A stretch of DNA of 36,761 bases from positions 1 through 36,761 of the forward strand of contig JAADFL010000009.1 in the NCBI GenBank assembly GCA_013152945.1, written 5' to 3'. Source of the DNA: Deltaproteobacteria bacterium. Lineage in GTDB: Bacteria > Myxococcota_A > JAADFL01. Shown one piece after another: positions 6,042 to 33,851 of this stretch. The position numbers and the translations under genes were made by a program. Positions within the stretch are counted from its first letter, which is position 1; each line of letters begins with the position of its first letter. The notes under the pieces are model-generated. The model was not told the DNA's origin. It worked only from the letters and a program-made list of their open reading frames with translations, and made no database searches.

Positions 6042-6632
6042 ATGGATCTGCTCTCCTCTGATTTCGAATTGCTGAATGCTTTTAGAAGAGGCGATGAATC
6101 CGCCATGGCCCTGGTATATCACTCATACGTGGACATTGTTTGGACCACCGTGCGCAGGGCAGGTATTATTGAACCGGATCTCCAGGCCGATGTAGTACAG
6201 GAGACTTTTCTCAAGGCTTTCCTGCCCGGGACAAGGGCTGCTTATGATTCCAGCCGTGAGTTCAAACCATACATATGCGGCATTGCCAGGAATCTGGCCG
6301 TTGACATGGCCAGGAGGGCCGGGACCAAGGCAAAGATGGAGCATAACCTTTTGAAAGAGAACGGCATTGATCATTCAAACCTGAAGGAGGAACCCGAAGA
6401 TCTTGTCCATCACCATAGGCTGAAAGAGCTGGTGAATTCGTACATTGATTCCGTTTCGCCAGAACTCAAGCGATTTTGGATGTTGAGATACAAGGAAGAA
6501 TTGCCACAAGCGGACGTGGCAGCCCACATGGGTATTACCAGGCGGCGTGTTCGGACCCTTGAGAGGAGATTGCATAAAGGCCTTAAACGCTTCCTGTTTT
6601 CAAAGGGTGTGCATTACCTTGAGAAACTTTAA
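6042..6632 (+). CDS. RNA polymerase sigma factor, ECF-type sigma-70 family
   Basis: A protein of 196 residues with the two-domain plan of ECF sigma factors. Region 2 is in the N-terminal half (LLNAFRRGDESAMALVYHSY, then QADVVQETFLKAF and YICGIARNLAVD). Region 4 is at the C-terminus, with the helix-turn-helix around LPQADVAAHMGITRRRVRTL. It would direct RNA polymerase to a small regulon. AGGAGG lies about 12 nt before ATG 6042, slightly long, and a perfect inverted repeat lies just upstream. It heads a same-strand block with the cysteine-rich lipoprotein, the DUF4384-like anchored protein and the caspase-like protein, so these are the obvious candidates for its target genes. I see no classical anti-sigma gene next to it, unless the anchored protein at 7711 plays that part. 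Confidence 0.9.
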   Translation: MDLLSSDFELLNAFRRGDESAMALVYHSYVDIVWTTVRRAGIIEPDLQADVVQETFLKAFLPGTRAAYDSSREFKPYICGIARNLAVDMARRAGTKAKMEHNLLKENGIDHSNLKEEPEDLVHHHRLKELVNSYIDSVSPELKRFWMLRYKEELPQADVAAHMGITRRRVRTLERRLHKGLKRFLFSKGVHYLEKL

Positions 6633-6720: not shown

Positions 6721-7644
6721 ATGTATATCAAGCGTTCCAAGCTAATGGTGCTGGGTACCTTTTCAGTTCTGGCCATGATCCTTTTCTCGTGCGGCGGCAA
6801 GGACGATTCCTCAAAGGATAAGTGTAACACGGACACGGATTGTGCATCAGGCCACAAATGTAACGAGGGCACGTGTATGAGCTATGAGGGAGGGGGATTT
6901 CTTTGTTCCAACTCCAACCCCTGTCCGAAAGGCCAGTTCTGCTTCAACGGCCTGTGTGCCATTGGTTGTACGACCGATGACAACTGTGCAAACAATCAGT
7001 ATTGCGACACCGAGTGGGAACACATGTGTGTAAACAAAGAAGTCCATACCTGCCCTGATACGCCATGTGCGTCGAACCAGGAATGTATAAAAGGTCTATG
7101 CTCGGCCAAGGCAGAATCTGAAAAATGCACTCCCCGGCCGGATGGAAAGGATGGATGTGACAAGTATTCCATCTGTATTGACAAATCCGATGCCGACGCA
7201 AAAGAGCAGGACTTATCCTGCGTCAGCTTTCCGCCTTGTCCACAGGATGGAGCGTGCCCGGTTGGGACGGTAGGTGCCGTGTGCAACGAGGGCTACATAC
7301 CGAATAAAGCCAGGATATGCCTTACAGGTCTGTGCAAGAGCGAGGACAACTGCCCCTCGGGTTTCAATTGCATAACACCGCAAGGAAGCCAACTCGGCAT
7401 GTGTGGGAGCGGCGCATTCGGATCACCCTGCCTGTCATCCTCCGACTGCCAGGATGGATTGTCCTGCCTCGGGGCTATAACAGGTGTGCCCGGATTCTGT
7501 ATGCCCGGAGGAGGTGGAGGCAACGATTGCATAGACGCCGGAGGCGCCTGTGTGGACCCCATGAAAGGTTGCCCCGACGGGACTGTTCCGGACGGAACAA
7601 AATCTTGTAGTTCAATGGGCGAAATTTGCTGTATGAAATCTTGA
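6721..7644 (+). CDS. Cysteine-rich lipoprotein with Dickkopf/EGF-like repeats
   Basis: A protein of 307 residues with a lipoprotein signal peptide (residues 1-23) and lipobox LFSC, putting the lipidated cysteine at C24. The following residues are Gly-Gly, which argues for outer-membrane rather than inner-membrane sorting. The mature part contains about 38 further cysteines in repeated modules such as CNTDTDCASGHKCNEGTC and CTTDDNCANNQYC, the pattern of Dickkopf-N/EGF-like repeats common in myxobacterial and related surface lipoproteins. A polyglycine linker (GGGGGND) precedes the last module. The many cysteines presumably form disulfides in the periplasm or on the surface. Function is unknown; such proteins are often thought to bind protein or carbohydrate. 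The ribosome binding site GGAGGTGA is close to ideal. It lies 88 nt after the sigma factor. Confidence 0.85.
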   Translation: MYIKRSKLMVLGTFSVLAMILFSCGGKDDSSKDKCNTDTDCASGHKCNEGTCMSYEGGGFLCSNSNPCPKGQFCFNGLCAIGCTTDDNCANNQYCDTEWEHMCVNKEVHTCPDTPCASNQECIKGLCSAKAESEKCTPRPDGKDGCDKYSICIDKSDADAKEQDLSCVSFPPCPQDGACPVGTVGAVCNEGYIPNKARICLTGLCKSEDNCPSGFNCITPQGSQLGMCGSGAFGSPCLSSSDCQDGLSCLGAITGVPGFCMPGGGGGNDCIDAGGACVDPMKGCPDGTVPDGTKSCSSMGEICCMKS

Positions 7645-7710: not shown

Positions 7711-8376
7711 TTGAACAGGCGGGAACGCATTGTACTGGATAGGCTTCTTTCACAGCGGATGGGCCTGGCCGTTACGGAAAAAGAAGAAATATGGTCCAAA
7801 ATCAAAGCAGGAGTGAAGAAGGCCGATGAACCGGAAAAGCAACACCGTTTAATTCGTTATTTTGCCTGGAGTGTCCCTACATTTGCTGCTGCCGTTCTGG
7901 TCATCTTTCTTGCAATACCTTCCAATGAACAAAATAGTCACGGCTCATTTTCCAGCAAAGGAGGAATACCTGCCAAAAGTTCATTAGCTGTTGCTTGCCT
8001 TTCCGGGGATTCAGATGTCAATCGTCCTGATCCGTTGTCCAAGAATCTGAAATGTCATATAGGCGACCGCCTGGTGTTCGAGGTGGTAGGTCAGCCGAAA
8101 AAGGAATGGTTTGCGGCGGCGGCTATCGGCGAAGGCCGGGATGTGGTCCTATATTTTCCATCAGTACACAGGGGGCCGGTCAAGGCGAAGGCATCCATCC
8201 TGGTTCGGGCTGCCGTTTTGCTTGGAGAAGAGCACAGTTCGAATAGTTACAGAGTGGTTGGAGCCTTCATGGACCATCCACCCACAATAGAAGAGTGGCA
8301 GGCGGATATAATACCAAAACAAGGAAACGGTTTTTCCGGCCTGCGTCTTGTTTCAAGGCTTGAGATAGTAAGATGA
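7711..8376 (+). CDS. Single-span membrane protein with DUF4384-like domain
   Basis: A protein of 221 residues starting at TTG 7711, a choice supported by GGAGGT at 7697-7702 with an 8-nt spacer. Residues 1-48 are charged and cytoplasmic in character, 49-69 form one membrane segment (FAWSVPTFAAAVLVIFLAIP), and the rest is probably periplasmic. The outer domain, with CHIGDRLVFEVVG, then VVLYFPS and a C-terminal FMDHPPTIEEW, resembles DUF4384, a domain often found with or fused to caspase-like peptidases (my assignment from memory of the family, moderate confidence). The layout of a short cytoplasmic tail, one helix and an external domain also matches anti-sigma factors, so it might restrain the sigma factor upstream; this is inference. 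It overlaps the caspase gene by ATGA, which implies translational coupling. Confidence 0.75.
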   Translation: MNRRERIVLDRLLSQRMGLAVTEKEEIWSKIKAGVKKADEPEKQHRLIRYFAWSVPTFAAAVLVIFLAIPSNEQNSHGSFSSKGGIPAKSSLAVACLSGDSDVNRPDPLSKNLKCHIGDRLVFEVVGQPKKEWFAAAAIGEGRDVVLYFPSVHRGPVKAKASILVRAAVLLGEEHSSNSYRVVGAFMDHPPTIEEWQADIIPKQGNGFSGLRLVSRLEIVR

Positions 8377-9962
8377 AGTCAGCCTTATTTGTAGTAATAG
8401 CCTTTATAAGCCTCGTTCCGCGTGTAAACGCAAGCACGGCGATATTCTCGCTCCATGTAGGAGTCAACACTCCTCCCGTTGACTCGGCTCTGGAGAAACT
8501 TGAGTTTGCAGATGACGACGCTGTCCGCTTTGAGCGATTCTTGTCGGCCTTTTCAACTAAAAGTGTACTCGCAACAATGCCTGACAAGAGAACTCAACAG
8601 TTGTTTCCAGGCGTGGCGGCACAAGCTATAGTACCGTCCAGAGATAATATCGAGACGGCTCTAAAAGAAATCTCATCCGAAATAACCAGTGCCAAACAGG
8701 CCGGAAATCGTACTATATTCTACTTTACTTACTCGGGACACGGCGTTCCCGGTCAAGGAAAGAAAGCGGTTCTTGCGCTGCTGGGCTCGACCGTGGATGA
8801 AGAATGGCTCAAGGAGCATGTTTTCTCCATGCCGGCCGACCTGGTGCATGTGTTCATAGATGCTTGCCGGGCAGAGGAAGTCGTTCTGGAAAGAGGCGAG
8901 GAGTCGAACATAAAGAGTGCGAGGCCTGTAGAAATGTCTGCGGAAGACACGGCGATCCTTACCGAGAAACCAAGTCCAAGAAAAAACCCGGTCGTCGGCC
9001 TGTTCATGTCCGGTGCAGCCGGTGCAAATGCTCACGAGTGGTCTGCCCTGGAAATGGGAGTCTTCACCTTCGAGGTATTAAGCGGCCTTTCAGGCCCGGC
9101 GGATGTAAATCAGGACAATGTCATAACGTATACCGAGCTTGCCGCCTTCCTGGCATCTGCGAACCAAGGAGTCAAGGAAGCTAAGGCCATGGTGGCTCTG
9201 CGATACTCTCCGCCTTTCATGAATAGGAATGCACCATTATTGGATCGTTCTTGGCTTCATGACGACTTCGCTCTTCTTCGCGGTCGGTCTGCCCGGGCAT
9301 GCCGGTTCGTACTGGAAGGAGAGGGAGGAATTGCTCTTTACCAATGGAGGCCTGAGCCGGGCTGGCCCTTCTGGGTCATGCTTCCAAAAGATGGAGCCTT
9401 ATGGCTTCGCTGCGGCCACAAGGAGGCGAAAATAGAATTGGGCCGGGGTGAGGTCGTAAAATTGGAGAACTTGGCCTTTGCCGGGCCTTCTACTATTACA
9501 TCTCGCGGGGGTGCCGCTACAGCCTTGCGTAAAGGCCTGTTCCTGACTCCGTTCGGTCCCGAATACTACCTGGGCTGGATCGAAGGAAGAGGTGAATTAC
9601 CGGTAGTGCTTCCTGCTTCCCGCTTAAAGGGCCCTGTCCCCGTAACGCAAGAACCGATATGGCCTTCAGTGCTTTGCCTGGCCACGGCCGGGGCTTCCTT
9701 TGCAGCTTCGCTTGTATTCGGTGGAATGGCGATAAAAGCCGGTATGGATTATGATGCTACAAATCTCGAAAGGCCTGCCCAAGAGGCCAGGAATAGAATG
9801 AACTTGTATACCGGGTTGGCAGCAGGCACTGCCGTTACAGGCGCGATATTGTTCGGAGTGGCTTGGATACTTTTGCCGTCAGACCAACCGGTGGCACTCT
9901 CTTTGGGCGCCTATCCTGGTGACAATACGACATTGTCCGTGAACATGTATTTCGCCTGGTAG
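8373..9962 (+). CDS. Exported caspase-like (peptidase C14 fold) protein with C-terminal membrane segments
   Basis: A protein of 529 residues with an N-terminal signal sequence (about 1-20), a caspase-like domain (about 23-290) and a C-terminal region with two hydrophobic segments (about 430-455 and 480-503). The catalytic dyad of clan CD is visible: H123 in TYSGHGVPGQG and C165 in FIDACRAEEV, with the leading strand SLHVGVN and FADDDAVRF typical of bacterial caspases and metacaspases. Such enzymes cut after Asp, Arg or Lys; specificity cannot be judged here. The signal sequence places the protease domain outside the cytoplasm, less usual than the cytoplasmic bacterial caspases. The part between the protease and the membrane segments (about 300-420) is not recognised. 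It is translationally coupled to the DUF4384-like protein and is probably the effector of this locus. Confidence 0.87.
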   Translation: MKSALFVVIAFISLVPRVNASTAIFSLHVGVNTPPVDSALEKLEFADDDAVRFERFLSAFSTKSVLATMPDKRTQQLFPGVAAQAIVPSRDNIETALKEISSEITSAKQAGNRTIFYFTYSGHGVPGQGKKAVLALLGSTVDEEWLKEHVFSMPADLVHVFIDACRAEEVVLERGEESNIKSARPVEMSAEDTAILTEKPSPRKNPVVGLFMSGAAGANAHEWSALEMGVFTFEVLSGLSGPADVNQDNVITYTELAAFLASANQGVKEAKAMVALRYSPPFMNRNAPLLDRSWLHDDFALLRGRSARACRFVLEGEGGIALYQWRPEPGWPFWVMLPKDGALWLRCGHKEAKIELGRGEVVKLENLAFAGPSTITSRGGAATALRKGLFLTPFGPEYYLGWIEGRGELPVVLPASRLKGPVPVTQEPIWPSVLCLATAGASFAASLVFGGMAIKAGMDYDATNLERPAQEARNRMNLYTGLAAGTAVTGAILFGVAWILLPSDQPVALSLGAYPGDNTTLSVNMYFAW

Positions 9963-21524: not shown

Positions 21525-23459
21525 TTATAGCTCGAAAAGCAGGGCCACCGGTTTAGCCTTTGTCACCGGTGCCATGGCCTTTTTGAAAGCCCTGTAGTCT
21601 TTGGGCTCGATCCATCTCTTGCCAAGCATCAACTCCCTTTTCAGAACAATCAAGCCCTTTTTCCGTGTTACCTGTAATCTTGCCGTGCCTCCACCAGCCT
21701 TGTATTCGAAGTTGTGAGGCATCATCCTGATGTGAAAAGAATCAGGATAGTGAACACTTATTTTCAGTTGTTCGAGTGTAGGAAACGGTAAACCAAGGGC
21801 TGTTCTTCTTTCATCTGGCGCGAATATATCCTTCCCAGAAAGTACGGAGCTTTCAAATATAGGCAGGACGATTTTCAAGAAACGGCTGTTTTCAATTATC
21901 AGATGGTCAAGGCCGGCTTCTATTTCAAGACTTATCATGCCTTCATCCATTCTGTTTACCTTGCACTTCTTTACCTTTGACCCGGCCAGGATCGATGAAG
22001 CCATCTTGCTTGCCAATGAGCAAGCGCCCTTGTCGGCCTTTTTAAGGGAATAATAATCAGCATGTGCTCCAGCCAATGTTACAGACACCTTGAAACGGCC
22101 GGCCTTGTTTCTATCCAGGGTGAGATCTATATCGAGAGCGAACAAGTTGTTTCCTGGTTTCAAGGGCTTAATTTTTTCGATTTCACCACTTGCGGGATCG
22201 AATGCCCATAAGCCTGAAAGCAAGGATCTTCGGTCTTTTGAGGAACCGCTCGTTGGTGATATCCAGCCCATCTTGTCGATTGCGATCAGCACCTTGTCGA
22301 ACTGTGATTGGCAAGCCGCTTTTCTGGAAATTTTTCTGTCTCGCGAAACAAGGATGGGACGCGGGTCATAACCCAGCTTTTTCAGCATGGCTGTCAACAA
22401 GACCGCCTTGTCGAGCATTGTCGCATATCCTCTTTCAAGCACAGTATCCGCTGCAACAGGTTCGAGGTACGCGACCAAGGGGCTGTATCCGACATTCGCC
22501 AGGCCGTTTGCCACGAAATCGAGAACCCTCTCCACGGCTTGTGTTGCGGTAGGTTGACCGGAGGCAATCTCCAGGGCCTTTTCGCCTGCACGTCCGCCTT
22601 GGTCCACGGCCTTGTCGAATAAAGAGGTAAACATCCTGCCCAACTCATTCCAGCCGCCTGCGGCGGACACTACAAGCCTTGCCTGACCGGGCGCCAGGCC
22701 GTTGAAGACCCGGTGATGAGATATCTTGTCCTGGTACGCGGGCGGAATATTTTTAAACAACCACTTGATCTTATGAATACCGTCTTTATTCTCGACCCGC
22801 GGCCTTTTGCCGATTTCCAGTTTTGGGGAAGTGCAGCCTACACAATCATACGTAAATTCCGTACCATTCTTGGCATCCACCTGGAGTTCGAATTTGTCGA
22901 TTGTCCCGGGAAGGTCGATGGGTATCTCCTTGCAGAAAGGCAATGCCCGGGGTTTTATGTCCTTTACCTGGTACCCGATACTGCCGACAGCGCCGCGTCC
23001 CAGCCCAAGCAATGTTACAACCGTCTCCCTCATGAAGGAATAACCGGGAGCCTTGTCAAGGCCGAAAGGGATAGTATCGGTGACTGCATTGCAAGAAGAA
23101 CGGACAGGGTTGTGATCCGGACCGCCGCAGGCCTGAACAACTTCCAGCTTTTGACGATCCGCCCTGTGCACTATCCTCGGATCTCCGTACACGTCGAGTG
23201 CATAATCGGTCAAAAACCTGAAGTCCCTCGAAATTTTTACTTCACCCCTGAACTTGTCCAGCACGCTTACATCGACAACCCTGTCGATGATTTCGACATC
23301 ATCGCCCGAAGCACTCAACTTGTAGGAAGCCAACCTTGGAGGTGCATCAAATGCTGGAAGCAGGCTTGTATTTTTCTGGCCGGCCCTGGCAGGAGCACAT
23401 GCCTGGAAAACCGGGATACAAAGGGTTACGACTACCAAGCAGGACTTTGCCTGTTTCAT
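21525..23459 (-). CDS. Transglutaminase-like/DUF3857-type protein without catalytic triad
   Basis: An exported protein of 644 residues with a signal sequence (about 1-26, ending CAPARAG; the cysteine could be lipidated, but FQAC is a poor lipobox). It has the same plan as the protein encoded just upstream: an N-terminal beta-rich part, a transglutaminase-like core and a C-terminal beta domain ending in GKRWIEPKDYRAFKKAM, which matches GKRRITPDKYNDYKRVI in its neighbour. In the core, the segment matching the neighbour's RCGVCKD reads RGYATMLD, so the catalytic Cys is gone. The His position (FNHCVV) reads FDKVLI, and the Asp position (IDPTW) reads ISPTS. It is therefore probably a non-enzymatic partner or a substrate-binding paralogue. 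It overlaps the neighbour by ATGA, implying 1:1 coupled production. Confidence 0.82.
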   Translation of the reverse strand: MKQAKSCLVVVTLCIPVFQACAPARAGQKNTSLLPAFDAPPRLASYKLSASGDDVEIIDRVVDVSVLDKFRGEVKISRDFRFLTDYALDVYGDPRIVHRADRQKLEVVQACGGPDHNPVRSSCNAVTDTIPFGLDKAPGYSFMRETVVTLLGLGRGAVGSIGYQVKDIKPRALPFCKEIPIDLPGTIDKFELQVDAKNGTEFTYDCVGCTSPKLEIGKRPRVENKDGIHKIKWLFKNIPPAYQDKISHHRVFNGLAPGQARLVVSAAGGWNELGRMFTSLFDKAVDQGGRAGEKALEIASGQPTATQAVERVLDFVANGLANVGYSPLVAYLEPVAADTVLERGYATMLDKAVLLTAMLKKLGYDPRPILVSRDRKISRKAACQSQFDKVLIAIDKMGWISPTSGSSKDRRSLLSGLWAFDPASGEIEKIKPLKPGNNLFALDIDLTLDRNKAGRFKVSVTLAGAHADYYSLKKADKGACSLASKMASSILAGSKVKKCKVNRMDEGMISLEIEAGLDHLIIENSRFLKIVLPIFESSVLSGKDIFAPDERRTALGLPFPTLEQLKISVHYPDSFHIRMMPHNFEYKAGGGTARLQVTRKKGLIVLKRELMLGKRWIEPKDYRAFKKAMAPVTKAKPVALLFEL

Positions 23460-25567
23460 GAATCACCCCCGTTTCGAAGTTGACCCGGAATCTTCTCAAC
23501 AAATACATCCATCCGGCCCAGCGCCTTGATCGCATCTATGACACGTTTGTAATCATTGTATTTATCCGGTGTTATGCGTCTTTTCCCGATCTTGATATCT
23601 TCTGAAAAAAACAATGTGCCCCCATCTTGTACCAGACCGGCTGCAAGCGATGCAGAGCCGGAGGTTTCATTCATTGATTTTCTTACACCGGCCATTTCGT
23701 AGCCGGCAGGCAGCTTTATCTTTTCCCTAAAAATCCTGTGCTCCGTCGATCGCAACAGAATGTCACCCTTTCTTTTATCAGTGTTTGCGGCTGTCAGAAA
23801 AAGACCAAGCCTCGAGTAGGTGGCCGGATTTCGAGCCAAGGGCATGTTGAAAATCATAACATGGTCTCCGGTCGAAGCATAACCTGGAACTACGTACGAT
23901 ATTTCAATGGTGAACCTGTGGTGAAGATCGTGAATATCGGACATCTTGTACGACTCGATCTCGGCCAGAGGGGAAATTCCCTGTATCAACCTCTTGACCT
24001 GGCGTCGAAGGTCATGAGCCGGATGGTACACGAAATGATAGCGCAGCCTGGTTTCGAGGTAACCCGTGCCGGAGATGACCATCTTGGACTTTAGGTCCCC
24101 GTTTTCCTTTATCGTGCCGTTTGCCTGAATGACCAACTTATTTGCGTCCGGAGGCAGGGCCGGAATGATTCGTAGTGTGTCGCCTTTGGGCAGGCCTATC
24201 ACGTAATACTGCTCGCGTTCAGCATTGGACCAAAGCTCTCTGGAGAAAGGCGCCCATGTAGGATCTATCATCCTGAACTTGCCGTCTTTTTGTCGAACCG
24301 CAACCACGCAATGATTGAATTGGTCGGCAGGGACCTTCTCAACCCTGGCGCCCGCCATGGTCATTGCGGGGTACACCTCGAAACCCGCGGCCCTGAGCAT
24401 GGTAACAGCCATTCCTGCAATATCCTTGCATACTCCGCATCGATCATGAAACGTCATCGTCCCGGGATGTAGGATATAACCTTCCCCCTTTCCCATGGAT
24501 ATGCCCGAGTACCGGATATTCTGCGCCACCCAGTGTAGAATGGCTCCCATCGCCTCGTCAGAGTTTTTGCCCCTTGTCAACTCCGCTACCTTTTTTCTAA
24601 TCGCAGGGTTTGCATTGAATTGATTTTCATTTACTTGTTGAAACCAGGTTGATTTTTCCTGCCACGAAGGCACGGTGGACATTACGACCTTAGGCAAAGA
24701 ATCAGTGTTGGAGAAGGGTGAAACCGGCTCTTCCTTGTACGGAGGAAGATCTTTGGCCCTGAATGTATACACGACCTTTTGTTTACCCTTGAAAAACACA
24801 CTACTGTCTACAGGCCCCTGGATCTCGAATTGGAGCGGCTTATTTTTCGATATTTCCACTTCGAATATGCTCTCGACAACCGGATACGGCTCTCCTCCGA
24901 AAACGGGCACTGCATAATACTGTCCCCTCATGGGAGGAATGTACATGGATTCGTCCTGCTCTCCTTGGGGCACTTTTTTACTGCAATTGGAAAGCTCTCC
25001 AATTGAGCCTTCTCTGCCTGCCAAATAAGCAATCCTGAAACCCTTTTCATAGGTTACGACCTCGAGGCCGTCGCCTTTTTCCAGCCTGCCTATGGGTAGA
25101 ATCTTCATCCTGGCCCCCCAGTAGATCCACCTCTGCGGTTGAGGCAGATCGATTAAGGCTTGGGGCTTGATTTCCCGGAGGAGCTTTCCCCTGCGATATA
25201 CCCGGGCGACTTTCAGCGTTACAAAGTTCGACATCGGGTCCCAGTCGAAGCGAAGAGATGACAGAAGGGACCCTCCCTTTTCCGTCAGCACCTTGAACAC
25301 TCTTCTCCTTATAAGGTGACCAAGCCCCGAATCTTCCACGACTGTCATGGAACGATCATACACAAGGACTACATCAGCCCCGTTATAGTCCTTTGAAACA
25401 CCGGCCCCGGCCAACAGCTCTTGTGCCCCCGGCTCTTTCTCCACGGGGTATGCTTCCGGTCCTGATGGATCGCCCGGGCTTGGAAACTTGGTGCCTGACG
25501 CAAGTACTCGAGCCTGCAATCCCATGACAGACAAGGCGGCTACAAAGGCAATGGTTAAATATTTCAT
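23456..25567 (-). CDS. Exported transglutaminase-like protein (DUF3857/DUF3858 type)
   Basis: A protein of 703 residues with a Sec signal peptide (MKYLTIAFVAALSVMGLQARVLASG). After an N-terminal DUF3857-like beta region comes a transglutaminase core whose triad is intact: C380 in RCGVCKD, H419 in FNHCVV and D435 in MIDPTW. A C-terminal DUF3858-like domain follows. Proteins of this type are common in Bacteroidetes and deltaproteobacteria, act in the periplasm or outer membrane as peptidases, amidases or cross-linkers, and their substrates are mostly unknown. The open frame runs up to 25663, but ATG 25567 starts a clean signal peptide and has GAGAGGTGA just upstream. It is the first gene of a two-gene operon with its inactive paralogue. 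Confidence 0.88.
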   Translation of the reverse strand: MKYLTIAFVAALSVMGLQARVLASGTKFPSPGDPSGPEAYPVEKEPGAQELLAGAGVSKDYNGADVVLVYDRSMTVVEDSGLGHLIRRRVFKVLTEKGGSLLSSLRFDWDPMSNFVTLKVARVYRRGKLLREIKPQALIDLPQPQRWIYWGARMKILPIGRLEKGDGLEVVTYEKGFRIAYLAGREGSIGELSNCSKKVPQGEQDESMYIPPMRGQYYAVPVFGGEPYPVVESIFEVEISKNKPLQFEIQGPVDSSVFFKGKQKVVYTFRAKDLPPYKEEPVSPFSNTDSLPKVVMSTVPSWQEKSTWFQQVNENQFNANPAIRKKVAELTRGKNSDEAMGAILHWVAQNIRYSGISMGKGEGYILHPGTMTFHDRCGVCKDIAGMAVTMLRAAGFEVYPAMTMAGARVEKVPADQFNHCVVAVRQKDGKFRMIDPTWAPFSRELWSNAEREQYYVIGLPKGDTLRIIPALPPDANKLVIQANGTIKENGDLKSKMVISGTGYLETRLRYHFVYHPAHDLRRQVKRLIQGISPLAEIESYKMSDIHDLHHRFTIEISYVVPGYASTGDHVMIFNMPLARNPATYSRLGLFLTAANTDKRKGDILLRSTEHRIFREKIKLPAGYEMAGVRKSMNETSGSASLAAGLVQDGGTLFFSEDIKIGKRRITPDKYNDYKRVIDAIKALGRMDVFVEKIPGQLRNGGDS

Positions 25568-25808
25568 CCGGTCACCTCTCGAATTACCAGGTTTTTCCAA
25601 AACCGTATTCATCTCGAAACGGCATACTATCCACGGGCAGGGCCGGATGCAACGTATAACCAAAAAGAGCGGTTCCTGCTGTGCATGAATGTGCCGATTC
25701 CTCTGGAAACTTTATCTTATTGTTTTGTATTACTACTCTGTTAAGTAGAGCCGGGAAGAGTCAAACAATGCCCCAAAGATACGGAGGATGGAACAGGGGC
25801 GGGCGATC

Positions 25809-28942: not shown

Positions 28943-29788
28943 TCAACTCCGCAGGTAAGACAGGCCTGCCAGGAAGGCTGCGAGCAGCACCAAAAAGACC
29001 GCCAATTCCAGCTTTTCTTTCCTGTTGAGCTTCATTTCCTTCCTGTTGACAATCCAAAACGCAAGGGCCAAAAAAGGCAGAACAGGCACAGGTGAAGCCA
29101 AGAGCATTCCGAGCGACAATGCTGCGATGCAGGCCAACAACATGGCAAATACGGTCAAAAACAATTTTTTTTCAGCCTTGACCAGCAAATAGATGAAGGC
29201 CGAGGCGAAGACGAGGTCTGTGACGCCGACGCCAAGTCTTGCAGCACCGCCTCCGGGTAGGGGAAACGAGAAGAGGAGCAGGCCCAAGGTCCTGGATTCT
29301 CCTGACTGGAAAGTCTCCACCAGTTTTTTCGTGACCCCTCCCGGCGCCATGACACTCCATGTATCGACTACTGCAATGATCAGACAAACAGGCAACGCCC
29401 TTCTCAAGTCCTCGACCACCCTTGCCAGCAACCTTCCACCTGTGGCTGCGGCTCCTATCAACGAAATATCTATGCCTACCTCGGCAAAAGGATAGCTTAA
29501 CGGCCAGGTGTTCAGCACCAGATCAAGGATAGCAAATGAACTGAAAAGCAATAGTTCGGTTACAGTGGATGATTCTTCGTATGAATAGATGCAAAGCGTG
29601 ATGAATGCGGACGCCAGCGCCACTCCGGCGGAAAGCAAGGCTAGAACAAACCATAATGTGGGTGACGGCGGCGAATCCATAACGGAATATGAAAACTCAA
29701 GAGAGACCAGAACAAGGCACGACAAGAGCAATGTCACAATGATTTTAGGATATCCGGAGCCAAGCAAACTATTTCGTAAAAGGCGCAA
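28943..29788 (-). CDS. Polytopic membrane protein resembling presenilin (A22-type intramembrane aspartyl protease)
   Basis: A protein of 281 residues with about nine hydrophobic segments. The first aspartate is D142 in AVVDTWSVMAPGG, followed by KKLVETFQSGE. Human presenilin-1, as I recall it, reads YDLVAVLCPKG then RMLVETAQERNE at this point. The second aspartate is D191 in RLGVGVTDLVFAS, where presenilin has KLGLGDFIFYS: either two residues are inserted or the GxGD motif is GVTD here. One membrane segment later comes PVPVLPFLALAF (P235-P238), matching the PALP motif before the last presenilin helices. The order Asp, Asp, helix, PxLP is that of the family. Presenilins cut single-span proteins inside the membrane. 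The start is TTG 29788 with AAGGA 7 nt upstream. It lies 31 nt downstream of the cyclase-like gene, probably in one operon. Confidence 0.6.
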   Translation of the reverse strand: MRLLRNSLLGSGYPKIIVTLLLSCLVLVSLEFSYSVMDSPPSPTLWFVLALLSAGVALASAFITLCIYSYEESSTVTELLLFSSFAILDLVLNTWPLSYPFAEVGIDISLIGAAATGGRLLARVVEDLRRALPVCLIIAVVDTWSVMAPGGVTKKLVETFQSGESRTLGLLLFSFPLPGGGAARLGVGVTDLVFASAFIYLLVKAEKKLFLTVFAMLLACIAALSLGMLLASPVPVLPFLALAFWIVNRKEMKLNRKEKLELAVFLVLLAAFLAGLSYLRS

Positions 29789-29819
29789 GAGTGAATCCTT
29801 ATCCCGGCCTGTCTATTTA

Positions 29820-32800
29820 TTATGAATTACTCGGTACGGCGTTCAGGGCTGCTCTGGCCAGGTCACTCTGAAGAAAAGAATTACGCATACCGGGATCAGC
29901 GATTGAATCGGCTATGGTGATAACCATGCTTCTCGATTCATCGAAGAACGTCCGGGCCTTGGTTTGATCATCCATTGCCTGTAAAGCCAATCCCATGTGA
30001 TACAATATTGGCCATCTGATTGTAACATCCACGGAAGCCCGCGCACGTAAGTCAGCGATTTCCAGATGCTTGACAGCCTTTTTCAATAAAGACGGATCCG
30101 ATTTCCTCCGTCCCATGAACAAGTATTGTTGTCCTGCGAGGTGATTTGCCCCGGCCAGATGTTCTGCGGCGGAAAGACTGTCAGCCAACTTGATAACCTC
30201 TTCCAGGCCCGATAAATCGGCCCTGTCCCCCTCTTTTCTGAAAACGATTTGGTACCTGCACAACAATGCATCGAGCTTGGCCATCCGAATACCCAGAATA
30301 TCGGCGAGTTCCAGGCTGTCTTCAATAGTTACAATGGCTTTGTCGAACTTGCCCAGGGCGGTATAGTCACGCGCAAGGCAGCTCAAAAGCCTGCATTTCG
30401 ACTCCTGCTCTCCTATCCAGTCCAGGAGATCCAGGGCCTCCCTGTGATTCCGCATTGCCTGGTTCGGCATGTTACACATCCTGTAAATATCGCCGATGTA
30501 TGACAAGGTCACGGCCGCTGCGGGCCTGACTCCCAGATCTTCTCCCAGCCGGAGCCCCTGCCCGAATGCGAGCAATGCCCTTCCAAGATCACCCTGCCTC
30601 TTGTGACAGGTGCCCAATGAGTTCAAGCATTCTGTTTCCCCGAACTTGTCCCCAGCCTGCCTGTAACTGGAAAGCGCATCCGAATACATGGCGGCGCTTT
30701 TCGCAAGGTCTCCCCTGATGCCCAGTATTCTTGCATTTCTGGAACGTACATCTGCAAGCAGGTCGGGCTTGTTCAGGCCGGCAACAGAATTCAACTCTTT
30801 TCTGGCCGACGAAAGGGCATCTTCCATGCGTCCAAGGCGCATGAAAGCTTCTGTCTGGGCTTTCAGAACCGTCACCAAGGCAAGTTGTTCCCCTGCATTT
30901 TCAGCCTCATTCAGGACCTCCTTGAAGAGAGCGATCACCTCCTGGGCGCGCCCGGACACAGCCATCAAGTGAAGCCGCCTTGTCTTGGCCGTGATCCGTG
31001 ACTTTTCATCACCTGCCTTTACAGCGTATTCTTCCGTATGTTCCAGCAGATGCAATGCCTCCTCGAACCTGGCCAGCTTGGTCAACACGGATGACTTGAG
31101 TAAACCAAGTTCAATGCGGCTGGCAAGAATGTCTTCCCTGGGCACATCCTGTCCCAGGTCCTGCCTCTCGAGCAGGCTGGACGCCAGTTCCAGGTGGTCC
31201 AGGGCTGTAAGATTCGCTCCTATCGAGGCGGCCTTGGAGCCTGCCTCCATTGAATAGGCAAAGGCCCTGTGAGGAAAATTGCCTGCAGCAAGGTGAAAGG
31301 CAAGGAGTTCAGGATGATAACTCTTGCCTGACTTGTTCCTGTCCTCCATAACTCCGGCCAGGCGATCATGTATCCCTTTTTTTTCCGCCAGGAGCAATTC
31401 TTTCGATATGGCCTCTTGTGCCACCGGCCTCGTAAATCCATAAGTCAGTGTCCTTGCCGGAAAAACCTTGTGAATCCAACCGGTCTCCTCAAGAACTTCC
31501 AACCCCTCGAGCAAATCCTTAAGGCGTGTAGACTTGACGACGGAACGTAAAAGACCCATTTCGAAACGGCTGCCTATAACAGAAGCCGACTTCAAGAGTT
31601 CAGCCAATTTCGGATTCAGGTTGTTGAGTCTTGCAGCCACCAGAGCCTCGAGACCATCAGGGACTTCCCTGTACAGGTATTCCATAAATGTCCTGATTTT
31701 CTTCTTGTCCCGGCTTGATGGTATCTTTCCGGTTGCCTGTAACAGCCTTACCAACTCGAGAAGTGCTCCCGGGTTGCCGTGAGCCTTTTCCCAAATTGCA
31801 TCCAGCACCTCCGGGATGGGTTCGCGACCTCCCAGGACGGTCGAAAGCAGAGAAAGTCCATCTTCCTTCTTCTGTACTGTCAGTTTGATCATCGTCCGTC
31901 TTCCGGGTCTTCCAGCCTTAAAATTAAAAGACGGACGAAATGAAGCACACAACAAGACCGGAATTTCCGGGAGCGATCCGGCCATGAACTCCAAGAGTTC
32001 CACCGAGGTCTGATCAGCCCAGTGCAAGTTGTCGAAAACAAGCATGAAGGGTCTGTTTGCGGCCTGGTTTCTAACTATCGCATGTATCAGATCGAATAAG
32101 ATACCCCTTTTTATCCTGGGCTTCAGTGCCTCCAGCGCCGGTTCTCCCCTGGCCCAACCTGCTGCCTGCGCCACCAGGCCGGCCCACCTTCCCAATGGCC
32201 TGGGCATCCTCGACAGGCCGCTCTCCAACTTGTGCATTATGTCTCCGGGAGAATCTCCAGGCTGGAGGGCGAAAACCTCCTTTAAAAACTCCCACCAAGG
32301 CTGGAGAGGCATCAACTTGTTTTCAGGCAGGCATTCCACCCGGCGCCATACTCCGCCTTGTACCTTCCAGTTGGTTATCAGCTTGTCGAGTATCCTGGTT
32401 TTCCCCGTGCCTGCTCCACCTTGGATCAGGAGGGCCTTCGCCTTGCCTTCAAGCACGTATCCAATGGCGTCATTGCATTGCTCGAGCTCTGTTTTTCTTC
32501 CTATTAAAGCCTTCGGCGATCCTGATCGAAGCAAGGTAAGAGTCTCTCCGGGGAATATGGAGGTGTCGATGAGGTGTGCTATACCCTCCACCTGGCCCGG
32601 GCTTGGTGACCTCAATGACAACCCCTTGATCCTTCCAAGTGATACCGAACCGTCCGACAGGATCTGTCCCGGCCTGGATGCCTGTGCCAGTTCGGATGCC
32701 CTGTATACAGCCTCTCCATGTGCCGCGTACCCGCGGATTCTCGGCGTACCCACGGCTCCTCTGAACACTTCACCCTGTGCCATCCCCAGCTTTAAACCTG

Positions 32801-33851
32801 CCGACATGGGCATGGAACTCGTGAAACGCAGCAACTCGATCCCGGTAAGGGCTGCGGCCCTTGCATCTTTTTCTGGATCTTTGGTCGAAAAAAGTATCAC
32901 GGCCTCGGCTCCACCCGGGACCGGTGAAACCTTCTGGAGTATTCCCTGCCGACTCCTGGTAAAATCCACCATGGTTCTGAAGAACAGGTCCAGATCTGAG
33001 CTCAAGCTTCCGGCATCGATATCGAAATCAATTCCGTTTAAAATTACGCATAACACACAGGCCGGCCCATATTCCGGGGGTGGCGGTGAGGAGATGGGGT
33101 TGAACGGATCATTGCCCGGCACATAAGCTGCCAACGCCCTGACGGCCGATTCCAGTTCATCGGTCTCTTTGAGTTCTATGCTTGTCGGTTTGAACCTGGA
33201 CTTTTCAACGAAACGAAGAAGATTGCCTGCAACCTTGAGTTCTCCCCTGTCCCGTGCAACCCTGTAACGTCCTGCAAGCTTGGCTGTTGCACCGGGTCCG
33301 ACTATTACCTCACCCGGGCCGGCCATCTCTGCAGCCTGCATGGCCGCATCCACGACGCTGCCACCGGCGAGAAAAGTAGCGCGAAGTTCGAGGTTGCCAA
33401 GCAGGCCCGTATATATCCTGCCTTCCGAGATTCCGGCCTTACATGCAAAGGATAGCCCTCCCACCGGGCCGGACCAGGAAATAGCAGCGTCCCTTGCAGA
33501 CAAGGCTGCTGCCAGACACCGGGCGGCATTGTCCTGCCCGGTAAAGAGAGCAAGCGCCCATCCACCGCCCAATGATATCACCTCGCCGCCATAATCAAGG
33601 GCTCCTTCTTCGAGCAATTCGGCCAGCATCTCGTCGAGATCTCTTGCCAAGGCAGCCCTTCTTCCCGGTTCAAAAGGAGGTTCATTGCCTTTTGCTCCTT
33701 CGATCCCGGCTTTCAAGGCCATGATGCATCCCTGAACATGCCATCCCTGAGCCGATAATGCACCGAGGTTCGAAAGGTAGTAGCGAAGCAATCTCGGTGG
33801 AAGTCCTGCGGTCAATCCATGTAATATTTCGAATAGTTCTTTGTGATCCAT
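29820..33851 (-). CDS. Double class III cyclase-like / AAA ATPase / TPR protein, soluble-adenylyl-cyclase-like plan
   Basis: A protein of 1343 residues with four parts. Two class III nucleotide-cyclase-like domains come first (about 40-215 and 258-440), then an NTPase domain with Walker A IQGGAGTGKTRIL (near 480) and Walker B MLVFDNLHWADQ (near 605), then a long helical TPR region (about 860-1330, for example NSLGTCHKRQGDLGRALLAF). This order is that of soluble adenylyl cyclase (ADCY10) and of many deltaproteobacterial proteins. Both cyclase domains look inactive: the GD metal site is GGGW in the first, and the usual VNxAxRL block is VVDAAMQAA and AVYRASELA. It may therefore be a nucleotide or bicarbonate sensor scaffold; that is inference. 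GAGGAG precedes ATG 33851. A coding-like short frame ends 2 nt upstream, and the presenilin-like gene follows downstream. Confidence 0.88.
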   Translation of the reverse strand: MDHKELFEILHGLTAGLPPRLLRYYLSNLGALSAQGWHVQGCIMALKAGIEGAKGNEPPFEPGRRAALARDLDEMLAELLEEGALDYGGEVISLGGGWALALFTGQDNAARCLAAALSARDAAISWSGPVGGLSFACKAGISEGRIYTGLLGNLELRATFLAGGSVVDAAMQAAEMAGPGEVIVGPGATAKLAGRYRVARDRGELKVAGNLLRFVEKSRFKPTSIELKETDELESAVRALAAYVPGNDPFNPISSPPPPEYGPACVLCVILNGIDFDIDAGSLSSDLDLFFRTMVDFTRSRQGILQKVSPVPGGAEAVILFSTKDPEKDARAAALTGIELLRFTSSMPMSAGLKLGMAQGEVFRGAVGTPRIRGYAAHGEAVYRASELAQASRPGQILSDGSVSLGRIKGLSLRSPSPGQVEGIAHLIDTSIFPGETLTLLRSGSPKALIGRKTELEQCNDAIGYVLEGKAKALLIQGGAGTGKTRILDKLITNWKVQGGVWRRVECLPENKLMPLQPWWEFLKEVFALQPGDSPGDIMHKLESGLSRMPRPLGRWAGLVAQAAGWARGEPALEALKPRIKRGILFDLIHAIVRNQAANRPFMLVFDNLHWADQTSVELLEFMAGSLPEIPVLLCASFRPSFNFKAGRPGRRTMIKLTVQKKEDGLSLLSTVLGGREPIPEVLDAIWEKAHGNPGALLELVRLLQATGKIPSSRDKKKIRTFMEYLYREVPDGLEALVAARLNNLNPKLAELLKSASVIGSRFEMGLLRSVVKSTRLKDLLEGLEVLEETGWIHKVFPARTLTYGFTRPVAQEAISKELLLAEKKGIHDRLAGVMEDRNKSGKSYHPELLAFHLAAGNFPHRAFAYSMEAGSKAASIGANLTALDHLELASSLLERQDLGQDVPREDILASRIELGLLKSSVLTKLARFEEALHLLEHTEEYAVKAGDEKSRITAKTRRLHLMAVSGRAQEVIALFKEVLNEAENAGEQLALVTVLKAQTEAFMRLGRMEDALSSARKELNSVAGLNKPDLLADVRSRNARILGIRGDLAKSAAMYSDALSSYRQAGDKFGETECLNSLGTCHKRQGDLGRALLAFGQGLRLGEDLGVRPAAAVTLSYIGDIYRMCNMPNQAMRNHREALDLLDWIGEQESKCRLLSCLARDYTALGKFDKAIVTIEDSLELADILGIRMAKLDALLCRYQIVFRKEGDRADLSGLEEVIKLADSLSAAEHLAGANHLAGQQYLFMGRRKSDPSLLKKAVKHLEIADLRARASVDVTIRWPILYHMGLALQAMDDQTKARTFFDESRSMVITIADSIADPGMRNSFLQSDLARAALNAVPSNS

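Follow-up and report, generated by a model that had tools for sequence, protein, structure and literature searches.

A Myxococcota family of presenilin-superfamily membrane proteins and its divergent member with a variant GxGD motif

Introduction

Does the bacterial contig JAADFL010000009.1 encode an intramembrane protease of the presenilin type? The question arises from one open reading frame (ORF) of the window, i.e., the whole 36,761-nucleotide stretch of DNA that was analysed, in which a sequence-only reading had seen two aspartates placed like the catalytic pair of presenilin, the second of them in an unusual form of the GxGD motif. Presenilin is the enzyme behind Alzheimer's amyloid, with presenilin-1 or presenilin-2 as the catalytic subunit of gamma-secretase, and enzymes of the signal peptide peptidase (SPP) type work without gamma-secretase partners. 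To our knowledge, the intramembrane aspartyl proteases of the presenilin type described so far are those of eukaryotes and archaea. If bacteria also had a family with the canonical motifs, gamma-secretase chemistry could be modelled in small, stand-alone proteins, and the occurrence of such a family in Myxococcota would bear on the origin of presenilin, because a contribution of these bacteria to early eukaryotes is often discussed.

Results

The ORF proposed in the sequence-only reading is real. The ORF call, family membership and the predicted fold agree on a presenilin-like, nine-helix membrane protein of 281 aa, encoded on the minus strand with exact bounds 29,788 to 28,943 (28,943–29,788), an intact frame and a TTG start; direct reading of the sequence places a Shine-Dalgarno-like AAGGA (29,796–29,800, minus strand) 7 bases upstream of this start. 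A genome search found the gene in a single copy in its own genome. The motifs were also confirmed at the residues proposed, with D142 within VVDTWSVMAPGGVTKKLVETFQSGE and D191 within RLGVGVTDLVFAS, followed by SPVPVLPF.

Taken alone, the window protein gave no significant match in Pfam, NCBIfam or PDB sequences, and a scan of the contigs with it yielded nothing significant. Its best single-sequence match was to Pfam Presenilin (PF01080; E 0.46, 9.6 bits against a gathering score of 34.3), in a sub-threshold alignment of residues 135–174 to profile positions 178–217. The family was first revealed by a phylum-wide search of 282 genomes, which returned 13 relatives. Searching with the family profile gave matches in 29 of 377 sampled phylum genomes, the window genome included, of which the weakest (G090, E 3.4e-4) is doubtful and some others are partial. 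The family comprises at least 31 distinct Myxococcota proteins, its named relatives belonging to Sandaracinaceae and other Myxococcales, and the other 30 members are only 17–25% identical to the window protein. A leave-one-out profile built from these 30 relatives scored the window protein at 91.3 bits; among 500 copies of it shuffled locally, none exceeded 5.8 bits. A plasmid search returned no match. The family is not modelled in Pfam or NCBIfam, and a literature search confined to open papers brought up no description of a presenilin family in bacteria.

Against PDB sequences, the family profile matched presenilin-2 (E 9.5e-7), presenilin-1 (7.4e-6) and SPPL2A (1.8e-4), and the 31-row profile matched presenilin-1 (4.3e-6) and SPPL2A (1.4e-5); no unrelated family appeared among the profile matches at E up to 10. 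Presenilin is thus the best sequence profile match of the family. The alignment pairs LGvGD...PALP of the family with LGLGD...PALP of presenilin and the first active-site segment with the presenilin YDLVAVLCPKGP region, while a weak second stretch of it sets D-l-w-S-V-l-a-P-e-G against presenilin YDLVAVLCPKGPLRMLVE; after the first aspartate, presenilin DLVAVLCPKGP resembles D-x-x-S-V-x-x-P-x-G-P of the family. PF01080 (9 of 31 members) and PF04258 (6 of 31) were the only Pfam families matched by more than one member, in every case below threshold, and PF06550, the archaeal type, had no match in the 31 members or in 140 phylum genomes, both search controls (Haloferax and Methanosarcina) being positive. 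The proposed kinship was therefore not recovered at Pfam thresholds, and for PF06550 not at all, whereas the family profile finds human presenilins and SPPL2A. The likeness to presenilin claimed around TM6 held as well, Pfam Presenilin aligning to the same region below threshold.

The AlphaFold2 model, built from 31 sequences by a method whose training set included presenilin structures, reached pLDDT 83.2 and pTM 0.80 (pLDDT 77.5 with 14 sequences), with weaker values of 51–75 for residues 1–50. VIA-align matched it to presenilin-1 (8x52_B; Z 16.0, rmsd 3.3, 192 aligned residues), SPPL2a (Z 14.2) and archaeal PSH (4y6k_B; Z 12.0); all 25 rows above Z 7 were presenilin, SPPL2a or PSH, and the first unrelated row was a receptor at Z 6.7. 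Foldseek gave the same top family with modest TM-scores. The comparison of structures that had been proposed as a check thus favours the sequence-only reading, and bacterial membership of clan AD now has significant profile matches and a predicted fold far above unrelated proteins behind it.

Nine clear membrane segments appeared in the family-averaged hydropathy, as about nine had been counted by eye. By hydropathy and in the model alike, the aspartates belong to helices five and six of the nine, not to the TM6 and TM7 that presenilin numbering had implied. The structural alignment runs from presenilin TM1, which corresponds to helix 2 here, to residue 253–254, so that judging from the aligned ranges of the model, the family appears to have one helix ahead of the core and to be without two of presenilin's TM2–TM4. 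Beyond the presenilin-aligned part, the model, the alignment and hydropathy point to an extra C-terminal helix after the PALP helix (residues 256–281; 28,946–29,023, minus strand), modelled as helix 256–280 with a hydropathy peak at 266–276. Compared with presenilin, the layout has one fewer helix through the first aspartate, an additional C-terminal helix and the opposite predicted orientation. This orientation comes from the Lys and Arg residues of the internal loops: per protein, 9.7 of them lie on the side of the N terminus and 2.5 on that of the catalytic loop, and all 31 members show this bias. By the positive-inside rule, the N terminus would lie inside, with the catalytic loop facing the periplasm. 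SPP/SPPL proteases are likewise inverted relative to presenilin and accept type II segments as substrates (PMC7366577), and the SPP-like orientation predicted here would thus make type II-oriented segments the expected substrates.

The first active-site segment, equivalent to presenilin TM6/TM6a by the sub-threshold PF01080 match and the family profile alignment, comprises residues 141–158, VDTWSVMAPGGVTKKLVE (29,315–29,368, minus strand), and includes the candidate first catalytic aspartate, D142 (29,363–29,365, minus strand), in predicted TM5. At the GxGD position, the window copy has GVTD (residues 188–191; 29,216–29,227, minus strand), in which D191 is the candidate second catalytic aspartate, in predicted TM6, and at the PALP position it has PVLP (residues 235–238; 29,075–29,086, minus strand). 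D142, S145, G188, D191, P235 and L237 are constant across all 31 aligned family sequences, the spacing from D191 to P235 is 44 residues in every member, and in the 31-sequence alignment and the model, the two conserved aspartates sit in neighbouring predicted membrane helices. The presenilin YD motif is absent, the residue preceding D142 being A, V, F or S, and never Y, in the 31 members. The model also contains a helix at 152–161 and strands at 172–176 and 184–188, between which lies the loop that precedes D191; this short helix after the D142 helix resembles presenilin TM6a, and the modelled strands resemble those with which gamma-secretase holds its substrate (PMC12067869).

The third position of GxGD is G in 27 members, A in three and T in the window copy only; the 27 carry canonical GVGD, GIGD, GAGD, GFGD or GMGD. 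PAL is likewise present in 30 of 31 members, with PVL in the window copy only. The family thus shows GxGD and PAL, both of which are, strictly taken, missing from the window copy, and since GVTD and PVL are confined to this copy, the deviation in the motif is peculiar to it and not a property of the family. The sequence-only reading had allowed for either GVTD or an insertion: GVTD does stand in register with GxGD in the family alignments, and the variant is not family-wide. The simplest reading of the aligned sequences would be GxTD plus a slightly longer preceding loop, and alternatively the motif may be LGVG-VT-D, i.e., a two-residue insertion. Four otherwise near-invariant sites deviate in the window copy (P185L, G190T, R211L and A236V), and its branch length is 3.28 against a median of 0.56. 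In the three relatives with A (L002, L039 and L008), GxAD replaces GxGD, the same change as presenilin-1 G384A, the Alzheimer mutation at this third position.

Discussion

The homology of the window gene is well supported: it belongs, as a divergent member, to a family of presenilin-superfamily proteins in Myxococcota, and this family is, so far as the tools used can show, a new bacterial branch of the superfamily. With presenilin, the family has in common LGxGD, PALP, a helix resembling TM6a and beta strands bordering the loop; the window copy differs from it by GVTD and PVLP and by not reaching the Pfam threshold. With SPP/SPPL (PF04258), it has in common the profile match to SPPL2A and the predicted orientation of the catalytic loop, but it has x-D-x-W-S-V instead of YD, another N-terminal helix count and no PA domain, and its PF04258 matches are sub-threshold. 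The archaeal PSH/MCMJR1 proteins (PF06550 type) are, like this family, prokaryotic and small, and have the same core fold; PSH has no clear PAL motif (PMC2947513), whereas the Myxococcota family does.

We give a probability of roughly 0.6 to the reading in which the members of the family work alone, as intramembrane aspartyl proteases of the inner membrane, and the window gene encodes a divergent one of them. We infer the catalysis, membrane orientation and substrate class of such a family as follows. D142 and D191, in neighbouring helices, would activate water inside the bilayer, the PAL-type segment would close the active site, and the strand just ahead of D191 would pair with the unwound substrate helix. 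The loop that joins the two catalytic helices would lie on the periplasmic side, as in signal peptide peptidase, and the substrates would be type II-oriented segments such as leftover signal peptides, signal anchors and tail anchors. Participation in a gamma-secretase complex was rejected, the host genome having no match above the cut-off in a search limited to the gamma-secretase partner Aph-1. Replacement of SppA as a simple story was also rejected, because the host genome has a strong SppA match. A bolder version, which we put forward tentatively, is that Myxococcota have an ancient presenilin-superfamily protease lineage of their own, in which the N-terminal half is reduced and rearranged and the orientation inverted, and that the window copy is active via GxTD.

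Any role in signalling, as suggested in the sequence-only reading, would be putative. It is uncertain whether the window copy itself is proteolytically active, and its activity may well be reduced or altered. Indeed, the family may consist of active proteases from which this copy has drifted, to become a weak enzyme or a pseudo-protease that binds transmembrane segments without cutting them, or a gene nearing loss. The long branch, the replacement of GxGD and PAL and the loss of P185 and R211 would all fit such drift. Moreover, glycine-to-alanine changes at the GxGD site make presenilin, SPPL2b and archaeal MCMJR1 less active, threonine not being among the changes tested (PMC2947513), and this makes impairment of the window copy a serious rival. 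The intact frame and the ribosome site, together with the retention of both aspartates and of the 44-residue spacing from D191 to PAL, speak against drift, and the three GxAD relatives indicate that the third site tolerates change, so that on balance we hold a drifted copy to be a doubtful, though by no means negligible, explanation. Naturally occurring members with GxAD or GxTD are relevant to the strictness of the GxGD motif at the very residue that G384A alters.

It is rather improbable that the proteins have the presenilin fold but another membrane job, as a transporter, channel or chaperone whose aspartates bind ions or protons. A common fold does not establish function, and the gene neighbours vary by subfamily and none indicates a proteolytic pathway; conservation is, however, strongest precisely in the catalytic motifs D, GxGD and PAL, and the Pfam matches that could suggest such a job are single and sub-threshold. 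These matches, to the ECF transporter S component (Trep_Strep), Wzy and others, were set aside as isolated. Prepilin peptidases (A24) likewise use GxGD-type aspartates (PMC2947513), and the family could in principle be an enzyme of this type that cuts outside the membrane. This is very unlikely: the 31 members gave no Pfam A24 match at E up to 1, a PAL that follows the second aspartate by 44 residues is typical of presenilin/SPP, and every VIA-align row above Z 7 belonged to presenilin, SPPL2a or PSH, although the absence of prepilin peptidase from the PDB fold lists carries no weight. A chance pattern in a hydrophobic ORF, which the lack of significance in single-sequence searches might have suggested, is refuted by the leave-one-out score against shuffles, and independent relatives in many genera carry the canonical motifs.

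The gene neighbourhood was rejected as a guide to function: neighbours (SMC; MaoC dehydratase with thiolase; an FHA-sigma54 regulator with a UvrD-like helicase) are conserved within subfamilies only, and the neighbourhood therefore names no substrate. In one subfamily (L056 6964–7800, L064, L067, L072 and L073), MaoC dehydratase and thiolase genes follow the presenilin-like gene, and in another (L060 4238–7753, L055, L057, L063 and L069), the presenilin-like gene stands directly before the chromosome segregation gene smc. A FadB-like gene adjoins the window ORF in convergent orientation, and a link to fatty acid metabolism, as the MaoC/thiolase and FadB-like neighbours might suggest, is no more than possible. 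Upstream on the same strand, a Pfam-assigned AAA_16 ATPase with TPR repeats (1343 aa; 29,820–33,851, minus strand) ends 31 bases before the ORF; the two genes are possibly co-transcribed, and the evidence does not support a functional link between them.

Some other genes of the window deserve mention. By eye, the N-terminal region of the AAA_16 protein resembles two degenerate nucleotide-cyclase domains, a part that gave no Pfam match at 1e-5; AAA_16 and TPR behind a cyclase-like pair is an architecture like that of mammalian soluble adenylyl cyclase. Two adjacent genes at 21,525–25,663 (minus strand), of the DUF3857/transglutaminase and DUF3858 types, are apparently a pair. Finally, an ORF at 8,373–9,962 (plus strand) shows a caspase-like SGHG and DACRA pattern by eye, and near it lie a possible sigma factor gene (6,042–6,632) and a Cys-rich, lipoprotein-like ORF (6,721–7,644), both likewise recognised by eye.
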